IMG/VR virus record: IMGVR_UViG_3300048780_000041
Span: 1 to 37,213 of that record
Direction: 5' to 3' (one strand)
DNA length: 37,213 nt
Source of the DNA: a virus
Part shown: one piece after another, positions 3,214 through 35,167 of the stretch
How positions within the stretch are numbered: the first letter of the stretch is position 1
Layout: every line of letters begins with the position of its first letter
The notes under the pieces: generated by a model
The model's database searches: none
Told to the model about the DNA's origin: nothing
Seen by the model: the letters and a program-made list of their open reading frames with translations, nothing else
Translations under genes and position numbers: made by a program

Positions 3214-6200
3214 TCAGTCCGCCCATGTTCCGTAGAAGCTGGCCACGCTGTAATGCGTAGCATCATACCCATGCAAACAAATCATGTCTGTTACGGCTCC
3301 TCCACTAACAACTGAGTGAGCTGCCGTACCCCAACCTGAATGATTAATGAGTTCATAGTAATTACTTGCGGCCAAGGCATTCAACGTAATCACTGTGGAT
3401 ACGCCCGGAGCATTACGAACGCAAAACTCGTTCCCTGCCGCCGCCTGTGGTATTGTTACTGCGCAAGTTGCGGTGCAAAACACAACGCCCGCCGGGGCGG
3501 CCAGTGTTGAGATCGTGCCGCTGCCTACAATGGTTGGAACCACCGCCATATTCGCCGCTGGAAGCGTTCCGGTCGTAAGGTCTGACGCGCTCACAACCAC
3601 GTTGCTGCTCAACGCGTGGCCATTCACCGTAGTAGTGTTAGGTACAGCGCCGGTGATGCGAGAATCATTGCCCACGGCGGCAGTGCTGCCCGTAGTTCCA
3701 AAGCCGGGGAATGAAGTAGGAACTGTGGTATTGCAATTTAGCAGCGTACCTGTGGTGGCGTAGGTACACATCTTCCCGTCTGAGTAGGTTCCTGCGAGTA
3801 AGCTGAGTGCCACTTGATAGACTGTATTATCCAGCGCAAACGTCCCCGCCGCCGTCATCTTGACGAACTCTGACCCTGAAACCCATGTGGGATAGTTTAA
3901 TGCACCCCATGTTCCCACAGCCGGGATTTGGCTGTACAGTGCCAATGTTCCTGTCGCGCTTGGTTGCGTGATGGTATAAATTCCCACAGTGTAGGTCGTA
4001 GGCAAGGTGAGCGTAGAGGCGGCAAGGTTAAACGCAAAGGCTCCAAGAGTGTTTGCCTGATTGGTCTGCATGACTGTTGCTGGAAGGGAGTAAGCCGGCG
4101 CAAACGCCCCAGTGCCAAGCGCCCCGCTCGCACTAGGTTTCTGCCCGTGCGTCCCATCGGCTACCATCGGCACTTCTGCCGTTGCGCCGGGGTCTGTACT
4201 GGTCGCTATGCCCACCGCTGAGCCGTACTTGGTCAGTGATGTGCCCCACGCTGATCCTGTAGAGACGCCCACCCCCGCGCCTGGATAGATCATACTGAAC
4301 TGGTTATTCCAACCTTGTACTCCCCCGCTCATACTCCACGATTGAGTTCCAGTGCCGTTTGTGTTGAGCGCCCCGGCCGTCGCCGCATTGCCGCCAATAC
4401 TGATATTCGGCGTTCCGCTCAGCGTAGGAGCAGCCGTTGCCGAGCCGGTTCCGTGACTCACAACCACTTGGTCAGTCGCCGCCGTATTCCCCGCTAGGCA
4501 AGCCGTTCGCTGCGCCGCGCTCTGATAGGTCATACAGTAGGCTGTGCCTGTGAATGGGCCTTCGGTGTTGTTTGTCTGAGCTATAATCAGATCGCCCGGA
4601 ACCAAGCCCAAGGCAGGTAGCATTTGGATATTTCCGAACGCGATTTGCCCTACAGCACCTGCCGCTCCTTGAATTCCAGTAACATTAATCGTTACCGCAC
4701 CTGTTATTGTCGCCAGGGCTGTACACGGGAAGCTGTAGGTACTCCATGTAGAAGTTAAAGAAAAGTATGCCTGGCCCTCTTTGCAGTTCATGTTTAGATA
4801 GCCAACGAATACACTCAGCACAGGGATGTTTCCACTCACTTCCCTTGCCTGCACTGCAACAGTATATTTCGTTCCTGCCACCATCGAATAATAAACACCG
4901 GCGGCATCTTGAATACCAGCCGCAGATGGGGTCAGTGTGCTGTTTGCGCCGATGGTGACATACTGCGATGACGTTCCTCCAGTTGCGCCGTTGAAGGCTG
5001 GGGAAGGCGGCGGATCGCTTGTATTGAGCGCCCACGTCACGTCACCTGAGAAACTGGAGTTTTGATACGTTTGCCAATACGCGCTGTAGACGGTGCCTGT
5101 TCCAGAGAACAGCCCATTACTGGTAAGAATATCCGATCCTAGTCCAACCAGCGCGGTGTTTGATGGGATGTTCTGCTGCCATTGATCGGGGTTCACGATG
5201 ATCTGATCGAGCGTTGTTTCAGTGGAACCTGCGGAAACTGGAATGACTTGAGGCGTGACAGTGTCGGTAAGGGCATTAACCCAGCCATCTCCGGTTGAAC
5301 TCCCCCCCCAAACAGGATCGTTAATAAAAGTGTTGCTCTTGACTTCTGCACTGGTTCCGGTCACATAAAAAGCATCTTGCCCCTGAATGGCCCCGCCCCG
5401 CGATAAAACGCTTGTAAAGCCACAATTCCAGCAATCGTTGATGTAAACTCCGATTGCTGGTGTGGTGGCGGCATGGCCTTCACGCTCAAAATAAGTATCG
5501 GTAAACCAGATTTCCCCCTCCCAGCCACCGTAGCCGTCATTGTCAATCTGTACGCTGTTGTAGTAGGTTTTTACCTTCACCTTGTCCCACTTCGCCACGA
5601 TAGTAGCTCCAGCCGGAGTGGGAGCCGCAAAGGTGATTGTTGTCCCGGCTATTGTGTACTGGCCGGACGGCATATATCTCGTGATCGGAGTCTGCGCAGT
5701 ACCATTCACCGTCAGATATAAAGTCCCGGTCGGCGAGGCTGTCGCTATTGCATACTCAGGGGGCGGAGCGACGGTCAGTGTGTACACAGTCCCAGGGATA
5801 GCGCCCGATGGAGTCTCAATGTGCTTGGTTGCCGTGAAGGACTGCTCAAAAGTAGGAGAGACCGGCAGCAATCGCACCATGCCAGGATACGCGGAAAGAG
5901 TTGTGCAAGTGCTTTTCGTAAGGTTCGGATCAGTTCCCCACGCGGCAATCGCGCAGAAAGCTGTTGCCGATGCTGTAGGATTCGCGCCCACGTTTACTTG
6001 ATTGCCGGATGCGCCAGATGACATCCACGTAATCGCTGTCCCGTTTACATTCCACACATCCCCCGCCGCGGGATTCTCTTTTATGTAGACGCGCTCGCCA
6101 CCGTTACCTCCGATGACTTGCCCCCCGCTGACCCTGGCATTCCCTACCATCATCCCTCCTGTGGGGTAGGGGATGGTGTTTCCAAAAAACACGATAGGAG

Positions 6201-7404
6201 TCCCGTCAAGCGTGGAATCTCCGGTGTTATCCAATGTGAACGAAGGATTGACTATCTCGATCTGCCCGGAATCTTCCGAGTAAACGCACGCTTCGTTAGC
6301 ACTCAGACACGCGACATTAATTACCTGAGAGTTACTGTAAATGTAGCTCATGTCAATAAGTCCGTGCGTCACCTGAGCGCCAGGATAACCTAGCACCGTG
6401 ATCCCTGCCACACTCATCATCTGCTGCGGTTTAGCATCGTAGATAGGATAGGCAGGGCAGACAATCGCATCCACGACCGCAGTTGGGGCCAGCATGATGC
6501 CTGTATCGTAATGCGCGTGCGTGACGGGGTTCACACCATTATTTGCGTTAGTGGTTCCCGGCGTGAAAATAGAACTTCCCTCATCAAGCGGAAAAGCGCA
6601 GCCGCCATCCGTTTGTGTGTCAGACCACTGAGGCGCTGGGGGAAACAAAAACTCAACTGCTTTTTGATGCGACATACAACCAGTAAAGACAGACCCGGCA
6701 ATCGTCTGCGCCGTGGAACCAAAGCCGGTCATGTCCACAATGCCGCCGCCTTGAATCTCGCCAGTGTTCGGGTCGGTTCCTGTAGTCAGCAGGGCGCACG
6801 CTGATTTTGTCCACGTATCCAATGTCGAGCCGACGCACCATGATGGAACAGTGCTTCCGATTGAAGCAGCATAAACCGGATCGCACAGGAAAGGCTCAAC
6901 AGTGCGCGGATTGCCACCCAGGTTCGCCAGCGCCCCTGCTGCCGTGGTCGCGCCCGTGCAGCCGTGTGACACATCATTACTTCCCTGGCAACCGCCACCC
7001 GGAGGATAGAAGGTGTACGGACCATAGCTTCCGTAGGCGCTAACAACCCAATAATCGAAGATTCCTTGTGAGACCCATGCCCCGATATTTGCCGCCGCGC
7101 CTGTAACCGCTGTGCAGGTGTTTCCGGGAAGTTGCACAAGTTGAGTAGTGGATGGGCAAGCCGTTCCTTCTGTCGAATCCGTATAGGTCGTGATGGGCGA
7201 TGCTTGGCACGCGGCCAGTGTTGCCGATGGATGCGCGCAGAGATACGCCGTCGCGTTGGCAACCCAAAGCGCCTGCGGCAATGGCCCCGGCTTGAAGGGA
7301 ACATTCGGGCCGGATGTGAGCAGGGGAATGTCCACGCGCGCGGCCTGAGTCCACGCAGTCACGGTCAGCAGCAGCATTGCGGTCAATAGGGCGATTCGTT
7401 TCAT
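3214..7404 (-). CDS. Giant exported beta-helix tail-fibre/adhesin-like protein
   Basis: A 1396-residue protein. Residues 1-21 are a Sec signal peptide (MKR, IALLTAMLLLTVTAW, cut near TQA-A). Residues about 180-700 look like a pectate-lyase-type right-handed beta-helix; GGGIVDMTGFGSTAQTIAGS is the classic entry motif and short Gly/Asn turns follow. Residues about 830-940 resemble a carbohydrate-binding sandwich. The C-terminal third carries phage tail-fibre motifs (NDSRITGAVPNTTTVNGHAL, then SASDLTTGTLPAANM) and an aromatic C-terminal cap. Its position after the internal virion genes fits a tail fibre or tailspike that binds or cuts surface polysaccharide. ATG overlaps the previous stop (ATGA). 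The signal peptide is odd for a fibre assembled in the cytoplasm; export as a secreted adhesin or depolymerase is the alternative. Confidence 0.75.
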   Translation of the reverse strand: MKRIALLTAMLLLTVTAWTQAARVDIPLLTSGPNVPFKPGPLPQALWVANATAYLCAHPSATLAACQASPITTYTDSTEGTACPSTTQLVQLPGNTCTAVTGAAANIGAWVSQGIFDYWVVSAYGSYGPYTFYPPGGGCQGSNDVSHGCTGATTAAGALANLGGNPRTVEPFLCDPVYAASIGSTVPSWCVGSTLDTWTKSACALLTTGTDPNTGEIQGGGIVDMTGFGSTAQTIAGSVFTGCMSHQKAVEFLFPPAPQWSDTQTDGGCAFPLDEGSSIFTPGTTNANNGVNPVTHAHYDTGIMLAPTAVVDAIVCPAYPIYDAKPQQMMSVAGITVLGYPGAQVTHGLIDMSYIYSNSQVINVACLSANEACVYSEDSGQIEIVNPSFTLDNTGDSTLDGTPIVFFGNTIPYPTGGMMVGNARVSGGQVIGGNGGERVYIKENPAAGDVWNVNGTAITWMSSGASGNQVNVGANPTASATAFCAIAAWGTDPNLTKSTCTTLSAYPGMVRLLPVSPTFEQSFTATKHIETPSGAIPGTVYTLTVAPPPEYAIATASPTGTLYLTVNGTAQTPITRYMPSGQYTIAGTTITFAAPTPAGATIVAKWDKVKVKTYYNSVQIDNDGYGGWEGEIWFTDTYFEREGHAATTPAIGVYINDCWNCGFTSVLSRGGAIQGQDAFYVTGTSAEVKSNTFINDPVWGGSSTGDGWVNALTDTVTPQVIPVSAGSTETTLDQIIVNPDQWQQNIPSNTALVGLGSDILTSNGLFSGTGTVYSAYWQTYQNSSFSGDVTWALNTSDPPPSPAFNGATGGTSSQYVTIGANSTLTPSAAGIQDAAGVYYSMVAGTKYTVAVQAREVSGNIPVLSVFVGYLNMNCKEGQAYFSLTSTWSTYSFPCTALATITGAVTINVTGIQGAAGAVGQIAFGNIQMLPALGLVPGDLIIAQTNNTEGPFTGTAYCMTYQSAAQRTACLAGNTAATDQVVVSHGTGSATAAPTLSGTPNISIGGNAATAGALNTNGTGTQSWSMSGGVQGWNNQFSMIYPGAGVGVSTGSAWGTSLTKYGSAVGIATSTDPGATAEVPMVADGTHGQKPSASGALGTGAFAPAYSLPATVMQTNQANTLGAFAFNLAASTLTLPTTYTVGIYTITQPSATGTLALYSQIPAVGTWGALNYPTWVSGSEFVKMTAAGTFALDNTVYQVALSLLAGTYSDGKMCTYATTGTLLNCNTTVPTSFPGFGTTGSTAAVGNDSRITGAVPNTTTVNGHALSSNVVVSASDLTTGTLPAANMAVVPTIVGSGTISTLAAPAGVVFCTATCAVTIPQAAAGNEFCVRNAPGVSTVITLNALAASNYYELINHSGWGTAAHSVVSGGAVTDMICLHGYDATHYSVASFYGTWAD

Positions 7405-29747: not shown

Positions 29748-29765
29748 TTATCCACAGTTTCCACA
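29748..29765 (+). promoter_or_regulatory. DnaA box pair
   Basis: TTATCCACA (29,748-29,756) is a perfect DnaA box, followed one base later by a degenerate copy in the same direction, TTTCCACA (29,758-29,765). It lies in the short gap between two early genes and ends ten bases before promoter 2. It could tie early transcription or replication initiation to host DnaA. A single perfect 9-mer can occur by chance in a window this long. Confidence 0.4.
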
Positions 29766-31909: not shown

Positions 31910-32506
31910 ATGTGTAAGTTTGCAAGTTTTGTTCTAACAAAGGGTGAGGAGTTTTGGAGCGATAAATCTGACTCACATGAGAAGATTATCGCTGAACATA
32001 ACCTCCATGCAGACGGGGCACGCGGCCCAAACATCCTGCGTGTGGAGATTTCACCAACCGACAAGATCAAGGTTTGGCCGAGCCTCAAGGCATGGGCTTA
32101 TAAAGTCGATCAGGACCATATGCCGGAATGGTTCGATGCAGTGGAGTGTGAAAAGCGCACAAGAGTGGCATTGGCGCGGCGTTACAAGAAGGGATTTTGG
32201 TATGTGGACGCCAACGGCTGCACTTCGCTGACCAGCCTCGATGCCAAGGACGCTACCGGGTCCGTTTACGCCAACGGCTGCACTTCGCTGACCAGCCTCG
32301 ATACTGGAAGGGCTTGGTATGTGGACGCCAGCGGCTGCACTTCGCTGACCAGCCTCGATGCCGGTAAGGCCGGGTACGTGTACGCCAACGGCTGCACTTC
32401 GCTGACCAGCCTCGATGCCGGTAAGGCCGAGTACGTGGACGCCAGCGGCTGCAATAAAAACCTCGTCATCATCGCGCAGAAAGGTGCGACGGTGATACGC
32501 CCATGA
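31910..32506 (+). CDS. Solenoid-repeat early protein (DUF7666-like start)
   Basis: 198 residues, AGGAGG eight bases before ATG. Residues 1-85 (FASFVLTKGEEFWSDKSDSH, EKIIAEHNLHAD, then ILRVEISPTDKIKV and AYKVDQDHMPEWFDA) match a phage domain I recall with W-x-D/G-x-S-D-S-H-E-x-I-I, V-E-I-x-P, K-V-D-Q-D-x-(L/M)-P-E-W. After it come four and a half near-identical 19-20-residue units (ANGCTSLTSLDAGKAEYVD and relatives), leucine-rich-repeat-like, likely a short beta-solenoid. Units are nearly identical in DNA, so recently copied. It may be a binding surface; partner unknown. Confidence 0.65.
   Translation: MCKFASFVLTKGEEFWSDKSDSHEKIIAEHNLHADGARGPNILRVEISPTDKIKVWPSLKAWAYKVDQDHMPEWFDAVECEKRTRVALARRYKKGFWYVDANGCTSLTSLDAKDATGSVYANGCTSLTSLDTGRAWYVDASGCTSLTSLDAGKAGYVYANGCTSLTSLDAGKAEYVDASGCNKNLVIIAQKGATVIRP
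32210..32452 (+). repeat. Coding minisatellite, 57-60-base unit
   Basis: Units start at 32,210, 32,270, 32,327, 32,384 and a partial one at 32,441; periods 60, 57, 57 and 57 bases. The core GGCTGCACTTCGCTGACC plus CAGCCTCGAT is identical in four copies. All steps are multiples of three, so the frame stays open. Near-identity at silent sites points to recent slippage or unequal recombination. Confidence 0.85.
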
Positions 32507-33056: not shown

Positions 33057-34013
33057 ATGCCATTACAAGGAGAGAGACTCAGCCGCGCCGAAGATGGGAC
33101 GACCCTCAAGCTCGAAGGCCGCAACCTGCCGCCGCGCACAATCGTCAAACAAGAGGGCTGGAACTCACGCGATATGTCCAGCCCCGCAACCCGTGACCAC
33201 ATCGAAAACACACTCAAGCCGTCAATCAAAGCCCGGATGAACGATGGACTGCCGGGACTCTTCGACCCTATCAAGGTGCGCTACATACGCGCTACCGGAA
33301 CGCCGCTGCTGATCGACGGCGAGTGCCGGCTGACAGCCTATCTCGAATTGTGGGATGAGGGCATAGAAGCCAACATTCCCGTCATTGACACAGATGGGAG
33401 CGCCGCCGATCTGCGCGTCTCTACCCTCGTAGGCAATTCCGGCCTGCCACTCACGCCGCTGGAAATCGGCCTCCAGTGCAAACGGCTCCGCGACGGCCTG
33501 TGCAAGTCTGAGGACTGGATTGCAGAACACATCGGCAAGCCGAGGCGCTTCATCACCGACGCCATTGCTCTCCATGACGCCCCGGAAGAAGCCAAAGCCC
33601 TTGTCGCCGCCGGCGAAGTCACCCCCAGCGCCGTACTCCATGCCGTCAAAGAGCACGGAGCGGATGAGGGTGTCAAGGTTCTCAAAGCGGCCGTAGCAGC
33701 CCGCCCCACACCGCCTTCGCCCGCCCAGGCCAGCATCCCCGGCACAGCTAAGCCCGCCAAGGCTCCCAAACCTGTAGCAAGGCCCAAGGTGCTGTCAAAA
33801 CGCGAGCAAGCACTACAGGAGCCTCTAGCGGCCCCGCAAGCAGCGGTACCCGCGCCGGTCGCAAAGCCGGAATCGCCCAACCTCAAGAGCCTCGCTATCG
33901 ACTTGGCCTACCACGTGATCAGCGACGACTTGCCGTTCGACCAGTTGGAGCGGCTGGCTTTCAGAGTGTATGAGGCCGCTGGAGTGAAGTACGTCGCCAA
34001 GAAAGTCGTGTAA
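33057..34013 (+). CDS. ParB-like DNA-binding protein
   Basis: 318 residues; AAGGAAGGAA is the ribosome site. Residues 20-120 are a ParB/Srx-type domain: LPPRTIVKQEGWNSRDM at the front, IKVRYIRATGTPLLIDGECR with the GECR (88-91) in place of the ParB GERR box, then RLTAYLELWDEG. Residues 130-200 carry a helix-turn-helix (LTPLEIGLQCKRLRDGLCKS, EDWIAEHIGKPRRFITDAIA). A Pro/Ala linker (215-270) leads to a C-terminal helical domain (LAIDLAYHVISDDLPFDQLE). No ParA is nearby, so it is more likely a regulator, CTPase-like clamp or nuclease than a plasmid partition factor. Confidence 0.65.
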   Translation: MPLQGERLSRAEDGTTLKLEGRNLPPRTIVKQEGWNSRDMSSPATRDHIENTLKPSIKARMNDGLPGLFDPIKVRYIRATGTPLLIDGECRLTAYLELWDEGIEANIPVIDTDGSAADLRVSTLVGNSGLPLTPLEIGLQCKRLRDGLCKSEDWIAEHIGKPRRFITDAIALHDAPEEAKALVAAGEVTPSAVLHAVKEHGADEGVKVLKAAVAARPTPPSPAQASIPGTAKPAKAPKPVARPKVLSKREQALQEPLAAPQAAVPAPVAKPESPNLKSLAIDLAYHVISDDLPFDQLERLAFRVYEAAGVKYVAKKVV

Positions 34014-34068
34014 AATCGCACTAAACCCCGCAACACGTCCTCGCTCTGCCCCTGCATACGGTCCCACC

Positions 34069-34107
34069 AAAACAAAACCCCCGGTTGCCGTGAGGCTTCC
34101 GGGGGTT
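34069..34107 (-). terminator. Rho-independent terminator on the minus strand
   Basis: Perfect 9-bp stem AACCCCCGG (34,076-34,084) with CCGGGGGTT (34,099-34,107), 14-base loop. On the minus strand it is followed by TTTTGTTTT, so it stops leftward RNA coming from the HNH side. On the plus strand no T-run follows, though the stem may also slow rightward RNA after the ParB-like gene. Confidence 0.7.
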
Positions 34108-34150
34108 CCATCCCTGGCTCTCGAAGTCCAGGCTCTTTGGGGTTTAGGTC

Positions 34151-34213
34151 GAGGGGTTGCTCTTTGAATCTGTCTAGGAGTCGCAGAGCTGGGGTTTGCC
34201 GCCACAACCCCTC
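34151..34213. repeat. Inverted repeat GAGGGGTTG/CAACCCCTC
   Basis: Perfect 9-base arms at 34,151-34,159 and 34,205-34,213, 45 bases apart. Between them, and again at 34,251-34,261, lies CTGTCTAGG(A/G)G (34,170-34,180). Position just after the ParB-like gene suggests protein-binding or a large RNA hairpin. Confidence 0.45.
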
Positions 34214-34215
34214 TA

Positions 34216-34245
34216 TTGACAATTAGACACTATTCCGCGTAGGAT
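34216..34245 (+). promoter_or_regulatory. Promoter ahead of the structured region
   Basis: -35 TTGACA (34,216-34,221), 18-base spacer, -10 TAGGAT (34,240-34,245; 4/6). RNA would start near 34,252, in the second CTGTCTAGGGG repeat, and run through the hairpin-rich region to the 42-codon gene. The perfect -35 is the strong point, the -10 the weak one. Confidence 0.45.
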
Positions 34246-34251
34246 TGCAAC

Positions 34252-34740
34252 TGTCTAGGGGTATATGAGCAAAAAATCTTCGACAATTCGTTCCACGTCA
34301 GGGTTCCCGCTTTCGTGCGCCTGGGCCGTCGAGGTTAGGCGAACTTACGCCCGTGTATCGACGTTAATGCCGACCGTGTGCAGCTTTCGAGTCGGCGGGA
34401 ATCTCAAGGCTGGCACCGCGAAAGCGTATGGCCGGGCGGATAGTGCGCGGATGCGATACCTACCCTAGCGTGTGACGAGCGCCTGGGAGCCATCCCGACG
34501 CCAGCGCAACGGTGAGTCGCAACTGCTTTTTCAATCGCCCCTCCAGTGCAAAGCCTCTGGCCCGCCTCATGCGCATTAGCGGGGGTTCACGGCAGTAAGG
34601 ATAATGGCTTGGCCGAACGTGGACAGGCGCACGACAAGACGGATCGTGCGTCCCACGCGGTGAACCGGAGAGATAGCCGGGGATGGTAAAACGGTTAGCA
34701 GTTTTCGGGCTTATATCGGGTGAATTGTACCCAAAAACGC
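34252..34740 (+). ncRNA. Candidate large structured RNA
   Basis: About 490 bases without a convincing gene but with many hairpins. CGTCGA/TCGACG (34,327-34,363) encloses GGCG/CGCC; GCCGAC/GTCGGC at 34,369-34,396. GGC-CGC-GAAA-GCG-GCC at 34,412-34,433 has a GNRA loop; GCGC-TGG/CCA-GCGC at 34,479-34,507; CCCGC/GCGGG at 34,561-34,583. CGTGG-CGCACGA/TCGTGCG-CCACG (34,618-34,657) is a 12-bp stem with an internal loop; CGG-TGAA-CCG at 34,658-34,667; AAAAC/GTTTT at 34,688-34,705; GGGT/ACCC at 34,718-34,732. Size fits ornate phage RNAs such as ROOL or GOLLD, but I recognise no consensus. It may instead be an origin, packaging site or long leader. Confidence 0.4.
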
Positions 34741-34770
34741 CGATCTAAAAACACGTCGAGGAAGGGAAAA

Positions 34771-34899
34771 ATGGCACAGAAGAAAACTGATAAGCAACGG
34801 AGACAGGAACTGGAGAGACGAAAGACGATGCTCAAGAAAATCTCTCCAGTCGATACCGTCAAGATCGGGAAAAGTACAGATCGGGGCGTGAAGTGGTAG
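34771..34899 (+). CDS. 42-residue basic protein
   Basis: GAGGAAGGG five bases before ATG makes a very good start. Product: MAQKKTDKQRRQELERRKTM, then LKKISPVDTVKIGKSTDRGV and KW; strongly basic, a helix followed by a short strand region. It is the only clear gene after the structured region and ends seven bases before the HNH stop on the other strand. It might bind the RNA or DNA in front of it; no data beyond composition. Confidence 0.55.
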   Translation: MAQKKTDKQRRQELERRKTMLKKISPVDTVKIGKSTDRGVKW

Positions 34900-34906
34900 A
34901 ACGGTT

Positions 34907-35167
34907 CTACTTCCGGGGAAGCGGGTTCCCGTGCTCAGTGCGATGACAATCCCCGCAGAGTAGACGCGTGTTCTCTTCCGTGTCTGACCCGCCAGCTCCC
35001 CGGCTTTGGATATGCGCCAGATGCCCAGTAGCCCAAGAGCAAGCCGCGCCGCACTGCTTACAAGCCCATCCATCCCGCGTGAAGACTCGCCGGCGAAGAT
35101 CAGCGAGCGCCAACCCCTTCAATCGGATTCGACCTAGACGGCCAGGTACACCGGAACGGATGGTCAT
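34907..35167 (-). CDS. HNH endonuclease (small)
   Basis: 86 residues, ATG overlapping the previous stop (ATGA). LADLRRRVFTRDGWACKQCG supplies the first zinc knuckle (Cys36, Cys39). GHLAHIQSRGAGGSDTEENT and RLLCGDCHRTEHG give the HNH core: His52 in H-x-x-HI, Asn66, Cys71, Cys74, His75 and His79. The Asp before the first catalytic His of many HNH enzymes is Ala here (LAHI). Such small HNH proteins are homing or packaging-associated nucleases. As the last gene of the right-hand operon, either is possible; near terminase genes a packaging role would be favoured, but it is far from them. Confidence 0.75.
   Translation of the reverse strand: MTIRSGVPGRLGRIRLKGLALADLRRRVFTRDGWACKQCGAACSWATGHLAHIQSRGAGGSDTEENTRLLCGDCHRTEHGNPLPRK

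Follow-up and report, generated by a model that had tools for sequence, protein, structure and literature searches.

The question raised by this locus is what a virus might gain from the stretch between positions 34014 and 34770, which is flanked by a ParB-like gene (33057–34013, matching phrog_1033 with E = 9e-27) and an open reading frame (ORF) for a basic protein of 42 residues (34771–34899) with a good ribosome site. The whole stretch of DNA that was analysed, here called the window, comprises 37,213 bases and makes up the linear virus record IMGVR_UViG_3300048780_000041. The initial annotation had found no convincing gene in 34014–34770 and had read it as a candidate large phage RNA or cis element. 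No gene supported by a protein family was indeed found there, although the stretch is not wholly free of ORFs, because in the ORF at 34265–34468 a Shine-Dalgarno site precedes a start codon in frame, an arrangement that is kept in most relatives. The promoter with a perfect TTGACA reported earlier is also present (34216–34245, with an 18-nt spacer and TAGGAT), and two promoter-like sites were observed compared with 0.4 expected. We regard 34014–34770 as a real, functional-looking gene-poor stretch. Elsewhere in the window, a small HNH endonuclease gene (34907–35167, minus strand; Pfam HNH, E = 7e-8) is directed toward the module, and 57-bp tandem repeats (32197–32453; 19 residues, like SLTSLDAGKAWYVDASGCT) lie within an ORF at 31910–32506, whose product has no family match.

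A search with the ParB-like protein retrieved phages that have this gene in common, but not always the 34014–34770 stretch. Two loci, L006 and L007 (identical to records L011 and L014), retain the terminator described below and a 52-nt piece (window 34278–34329) with 96% identity. When this 52-nt piece and part of the large RNA were used as queries, 16 distinct metagenomic loci remained once duplicates had been discarded (the window, L008, L011, L012, L013, L016, L038, L039, L040, L041, L042, L045, L046, L048, L052, and L053). The exact letters of the motif GACAATTCG...CGTCAAGGTT owe part of their conservation to the way the loci were found, with pieces of this motif, and this conservation was not used as evidence. 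No homologue was found among isolate phages, plasmids, and one-per-species genomes; the core motif gave nine chance matches in unrelated genes when genome contigs were searched, and a protein-degenerate search with TTYCCNYTNWSNTGYGCNTGGGC added a single new member to the known loci, its one other match being due to chance.

The earlier statement that no known consensus sequence can be recognised was confirmed. Across the window and its relatives, Rfam gave only tRNAs and sub-threshold matches, from which no family could be assigned; nothing in the window and 20 relatives reached the gathering score for C4 antisense RNA, and the C4 covariance model found none in 33900–34950 at E up to 5. The ROOL- or GOLLD-like RNA that had been suggested gained no support, as neither covariance model matched the window or its relatives, and the group I and group II intron models gave no match. 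A sub-threshold Rfam match to NsiR1 merely corresponds to the minus-strand terminator. A group II intron, with GUGCG at the motif, was also rejected: the GUGYG start is lost in L041, L042, and L045, and domain V has no match. The putative two-RNA switch described here is absent from every library searched. The features that we assign to the locus are as follows.

34069–34107, minus strand: predicted intrinsic terminator of the small RNA, of typical form, with a GC-rich stem of 14-nt arms (34076–34089 and 34094–34107) followed by TTTTGTTTT.
34069–34222, minus strand: predicted antisense small RNA gene of ~150 nt, read leftward, with signals at the same place in 14 of the 16 loci and locus-specific pairing.
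34151–34213, minus strand: predicted outer stem of a branched hairpin, with arms (34205–34213 and 34151–34159) complementary at 9 of 9 positions.
34170–34181, minus strand: putative small-RNA seed, carried in a hairpin loop on a stem of 34159–34163 and 34185–34189, complementary to the target at 34251–34262.
34222–34257, minus strand: predicted promoter of the small RNA, TAGACA-17-AATAGT or TTGCAA-17-TCTAAT, with consensus matches in relatives.
34216–34245, plus strand: predicted plus-RNA promoter (TTGACA-18-TAGGAT), which overlaps that of the small RNA and has a comparable site in most relatives.
34251–34262, plus strand: site presumed to be targeted by the small RNA, at the predicted start of the plus RNA, with the Shine-Dalgarno sequence AGGGG at 34257–34261, assigned by complementarity.
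34265–34468, plus strand: leader ORF of 67 codons, of which only the first ~20 are common to relatives.
34282–34326, plus strand: shared 5' motif GACAATTCG-N5/8-CGTCARGGTTYCCGCTTTCGTGCGCCTGGGC, recurring in relatives.
34327–34583, plus strand: covarying structured domain of 13 predicted helices and 74 consensus pairs, from covariation and leave-one-out prediction.
34584–34720, plus strand: remaining part of the large RNA up to a putative 3' end, with GGTTAGNAG conserved close to it, from homology up to 34666 and the conserved stretch.
34771–34899, plus strand: the 42-residue basic ORF, 3' of the large RNA, with a similar ORF at the equivalent position only in L045; the other class A loci have different genes or none.

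The predicted antisense RNA is the best-supported part of the analysis. The initial annotation had overlooked it with its promoter, seed loop, and terminator, as well as an 18-nt direct repeat (34164–34181 and 34245–34262), the first copy of which is enclosed by the hairpin 34151–34159/34205–34213. In 14 of the 16 loci the small RNA can be drawn in full, from a minus-strand sigma70-like promoter directed away from the target, through a predicted start at the hairpin and a seed in the loop, to a terminator that keeps its position with differing stem sequences. Throughout these 14 loci the seed is predicted to be more often unpaired (probability 0.67–0.99) than the RNA overall (0.34–0.50), with means of 0.67 versus 0.38 in the window. 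The small RNA takes the form of either a simple hairpin (RNAs of 78–96 nt) or a branched one (about 110–155 nt), the transcript ends being predictions. The architecture is constant while the stems vary in sequence among loci, and an outer stem of GCGGGG/CCCCGC occurs in most branched relatives. No clear terminator was seen in L039 and L046. In L046 the seed–target match lies in a different arm, outside the usual loop; in L039 (1–268, minus strand) the distance between start codon and motif is also off by one base, and this locus might be either a decayed copy or a sequencing error.

The putative targets lie just 5' of the leader ORF start, for example CTGTCTAGGGGT in the window, TTGTCTAGG in L012, TTGTTCAGG in L013, TGCTGAGG in L011, TGCTCAGG in L016, GGCCAGGAA in L038, TTGCTTAGG in L040, and CTGTCGAGGAA in L045. 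In each locus the target sequence is repeated upstream, where the minus strand reads as its complement. Among the 16 loci, loop and target sequences vary between loci and agree within a locus. The longest exact match averaged 9.0 nt with the own copy and 6.2 nt with those of other loci, and the duplex energies were −31.4 and −23.5 kcal/mol, respectively; none of 100,000 permutations matched the observed value of either measure. The seeds are short, with 7–17 nt of exact match. As controls, an anti-target inside the plus RNA showed no own-locus excess (14,877/20,000) and was rejected as no better than chance, and a small-RNA mimic downstream showed none either (19,796/20,000). Extra small-RNA target sites downstream gave a slight excess (519/20,000), which came mainly from unrelated shared words. 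By comparison of the loci, the complementarity between the predicted loop and the ribosome site is locus-specific.

The start codon of the leader ORF, ATG or TTG, lies 14, 17, or 20 nt 5' of GACAATTCG, in one frame, in 14 of the 16 loci, the exceptions being L039 with its one-base shift and L052, in which the motif has diverged and the frame is open. Insertions within the shared 5' motif are likewise of three bases. Past the first ~20 codons neither the leader sequence nor the frame is kept, and the length ranges from 27 to 81 codons. In the part outside the search selection, the differences per codon position are 8, 8, and 9, and because this tally is flat, a conserved functional peptide is unsupported beyond the start region. 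We infer a leader that needs to be translated and whose product itself need not be kept.

The window, L052, L053, L038, and L045 are homologous over ~400 nt (75.5% over 364 nt between the window and L052). The remaining loci have only the first ~100 nt in common, and their downstream sequences, which are unrelated to that of the window, form the groups L011 and L012; L008, L041, and L048; L039 and L046; and L040 and L042. The "hairpin-dense" character attributed to the stretch is not reflected in its folding energy, which is ordinary (z = 0.03 for the plus strand, 34330–34720, against dinucleotide shuffles); most relatives likewise fold no better than their shuffles. As z was near 0, we dropped minimum free energy for covariation. 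Some hairpins were not used as tests, because they had been picked by eye and were fully paired by construction; the GAAA-loop hairpin noted earlier is present, in a part that differs among the homologues.

From the five sequences, RNAalifold derived 74 pairs, of which 25 are changed on both sides, compared with 13.4 ± 2.3 in shuffles (0/500 as high) and 3–6 with slid partners. Because a structure derived from one alignment favours itself, we also predicted the fold from four sequences and tested it on the fifth. In these leave-one-out predictions, 81–92% of the cells were paired, compared with 37–42% in slid controls, and the left-out sequence had 7–11 pairs changed on both sides. With 36 G-U pairs to 13 A-C oppositions, the plus strand is the likelier RNA. 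Five sequences are a small sample for covariation, and the exact helices are provisional. Comparison of the homologues shows a large covarying RNA predicted on the plus strand and absent from Rfam. The earlier reading as a large phage RNA or cis element is thus supported, having survived both the covariation check (25 of 74 pairs altered on both sides in five homologues) and the check for synonymous bias in the ORF at 34265–34468, which has none and loses its frame past the 5' module. Like ROOL and GOLLD, this RNA is large, structured, and encoded where a phage genome is poor in genes; unlike them, it has no Rfam match and no adjoining tRNA array, and it has an antisense partner.

We propose, with a probability of about 0.6, that the locus exerts antisense control over a leader-initiated RNA, in the manner of C4 or of plasmid copy control and with a specificity of its own in each phage. 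A minus-strand small RNA of ~150 nt (34222 to 34069) would present a loop sequence of ~12 nt, which might pair with the 5' end and the ribosome-binding site of the divergent plus transcript. By pairing in this way, the small RNA would keep the leader ORF at 34265 from being translated and thereby restrain the plus RNA of ~450 nt, the middle of which (34327–34583) would fold into the conserved structure. Both RNAs are presumably made, and their pairing presumably blocks translation. As loop and target change together, the small RNA of each phage would silence only its own kind, and by analogy with the C4 RNA of P1 and P7, this self-specific silencing might result in superinfection immunity, or in copy control and incompatibility. 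Among the neighbours scanned, we found none beside the module that encodes a repressor, an antirepressor, or another immunity function. What follows the plus RNA varies from phage to phage, so that no regulated gene is shared by them all.

The closest parallel in design is C4. In P1 and P7, the C4 loop pairs with its target and occludes the ribosome site, and only the specificity loop varies (PMC5320573); the consequence of this control is immunity. The module resembles C4 in having a small structured RNA whose short variable loop is complementary to a leader gene's ribosome site (PMC5320573, PMC8198154), and here too the loop varies with its target. C4 is cut from its target's own transcript, whereas the small RNA here would be made from the opposite strand, with its own divergent promoter and terminator signals. 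Further differences from C4 are that the seed loop is usually single, that a large structured RNA lies downstream, and that no ant gene was found among the neighbours scanned.

C4 acts on ant via the leader gene icd (PMC8198154), a precedent for an alternative in which the plus transcript is a long 5' leader of the downstream operon, and leader translation, set by the small RNA, alters the folding of the large RNA or Rho termination and hence the next genes. In the window, L038, L045, L053, L012, L013, and L040, the RNA is followed by a gene that has a ribosome site, in line with an operon leader. The identity of the downstream genes is nevertheless not constant, L052 and L046 have their own promoter-like sequence behind the RNA, and a convergent gene follows in L008 and L016. 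We regard an operon leader as possible but unlikely.

Plasmid replication offers the other parallel. In ColE1, RNA I sets copy number and incompatibility through RNA II; ColE1, IncFII, and IncI all use loop-to-target antisense copy control with group-specific sequences, and IncI has a leader ORF. The module is like these systems in all three respects, and its predicted small RNA has sequence complementarity to the large RNA's 5' part. This complementarity arises from a duplicated sequence rather than from overlap with the target, unlike in the plasmids, and no rep gene follows. The large plus RNA might then initiate or prime extrachromosomal replication of the phage, with the small RNA setting copy number and incompatibility, a reading that we hold to be doubtful. 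Consistent with it, the phages have no integrase match (neither a tyrosine integrase nor a resolvase was matched in the records searched), and the ParB-like gene adjoins the module in the window and lies near it in L045. The near relatives L002 and L003 carry another leader at the equivalent site, right after the same ParB-like gene, with a DUF1376 replication-type gene at that site in L003, and the module of L011 precedes the apparent tail of a replication-type gene. A non-coding RNA of ~400–500 nt beside parABS is the prophage origin of cluster A mycobacteriophages, which resemble the present phages in being integrase-less, in having such an RNA beside a partition gene, and in the incompatibility of related systems (PMC7157519). 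Unlike in cluster A, no ParA match and no sequence match in the phage collection were found here, and the module has a leader ORF and a predicted divergent antisense RNA, which those origins are not known to have (PMC7157519). Against an origin, furthermore, the ParB-like gene is absent from most other carriers, transcription in the window converges on the module, GC skew is flat with no clear switch, and the single DnaA-box-like site, at 29748, is expected by chance (0.54 expected). A leader ORF and a ribosome site as target would also play no part in priming.

Further features of these records were noted. In L011, an apparent replication gene without its 5' part lies downstream of the module (~6670–6900), which suggests a swap in which the module took the place of the gene's start. 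At the equivalent site, another leader RNA may precede a replication-type gene in L003 (~5420–5547), L002 (~5060–5178), and L004 (~5870–5980); its hairpin, TCCTCAAG/CTTGAGGA in L003 and L004 and compensated as TTCTCAG/CTGAGAA in L002, would hide the Shine-Dalgarno site. In L004, a gene that lies downstream of the ParB-like one also has a long run of 15-bp repeats (5100–5510), which code for repeated GGNQYV-like units.

The 18-nt direct repeats could, instead of serving as antisense seed and target, be operators to which a repressor protein binds, as they flank the promoter and co-vary between phages like the operators of heteroimmune phages. We consider this quite improbable: one copy always lies in a hairpin loop with a minus-strand promoter before it and a terminator after it, the other spans the ribosome site, neither copy is palindromic, and no common repressor gene was found nearby. 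Least probable is a type I toxin–antitoxin pair, with the leader ORF as small toxin and the minus-strand RNA as antitoxin, in the layout of zorO/orzO or tisB/istR, in which divergent small RNAs pair with the ribosome site of a small ORF; the leader product has nothing hydrophobic about it, only ~20 N-terminal residues are in common with the remainder varying in sequence and length, synonymous bias is absent, and the large structured RNA would be left unexplained.

Under antisense control of a leader-initiated RNA, the module looks like a self-recognition device, for immunity or copy control, of soil phages. To our knowledge, very few phage systems of antisense immunity have been described. The present module recurs in many metagenomic phages, where at least a dozen seed–target pairs can be told apart, so that specificity classes can be read from the sequence and could be tested by loop swap. 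A large covarying phage RNA that has both homologues and a regulatory partner also makes its function accessible. More speculatively, a hypervariable antisense lock might control several unrelated large structured effector RNAs, of which the one in the window perhaps starts extrachromosomal replication; although we think this unlikely, seed diversity would, if it were true, define incompatibility groups among soil phages.
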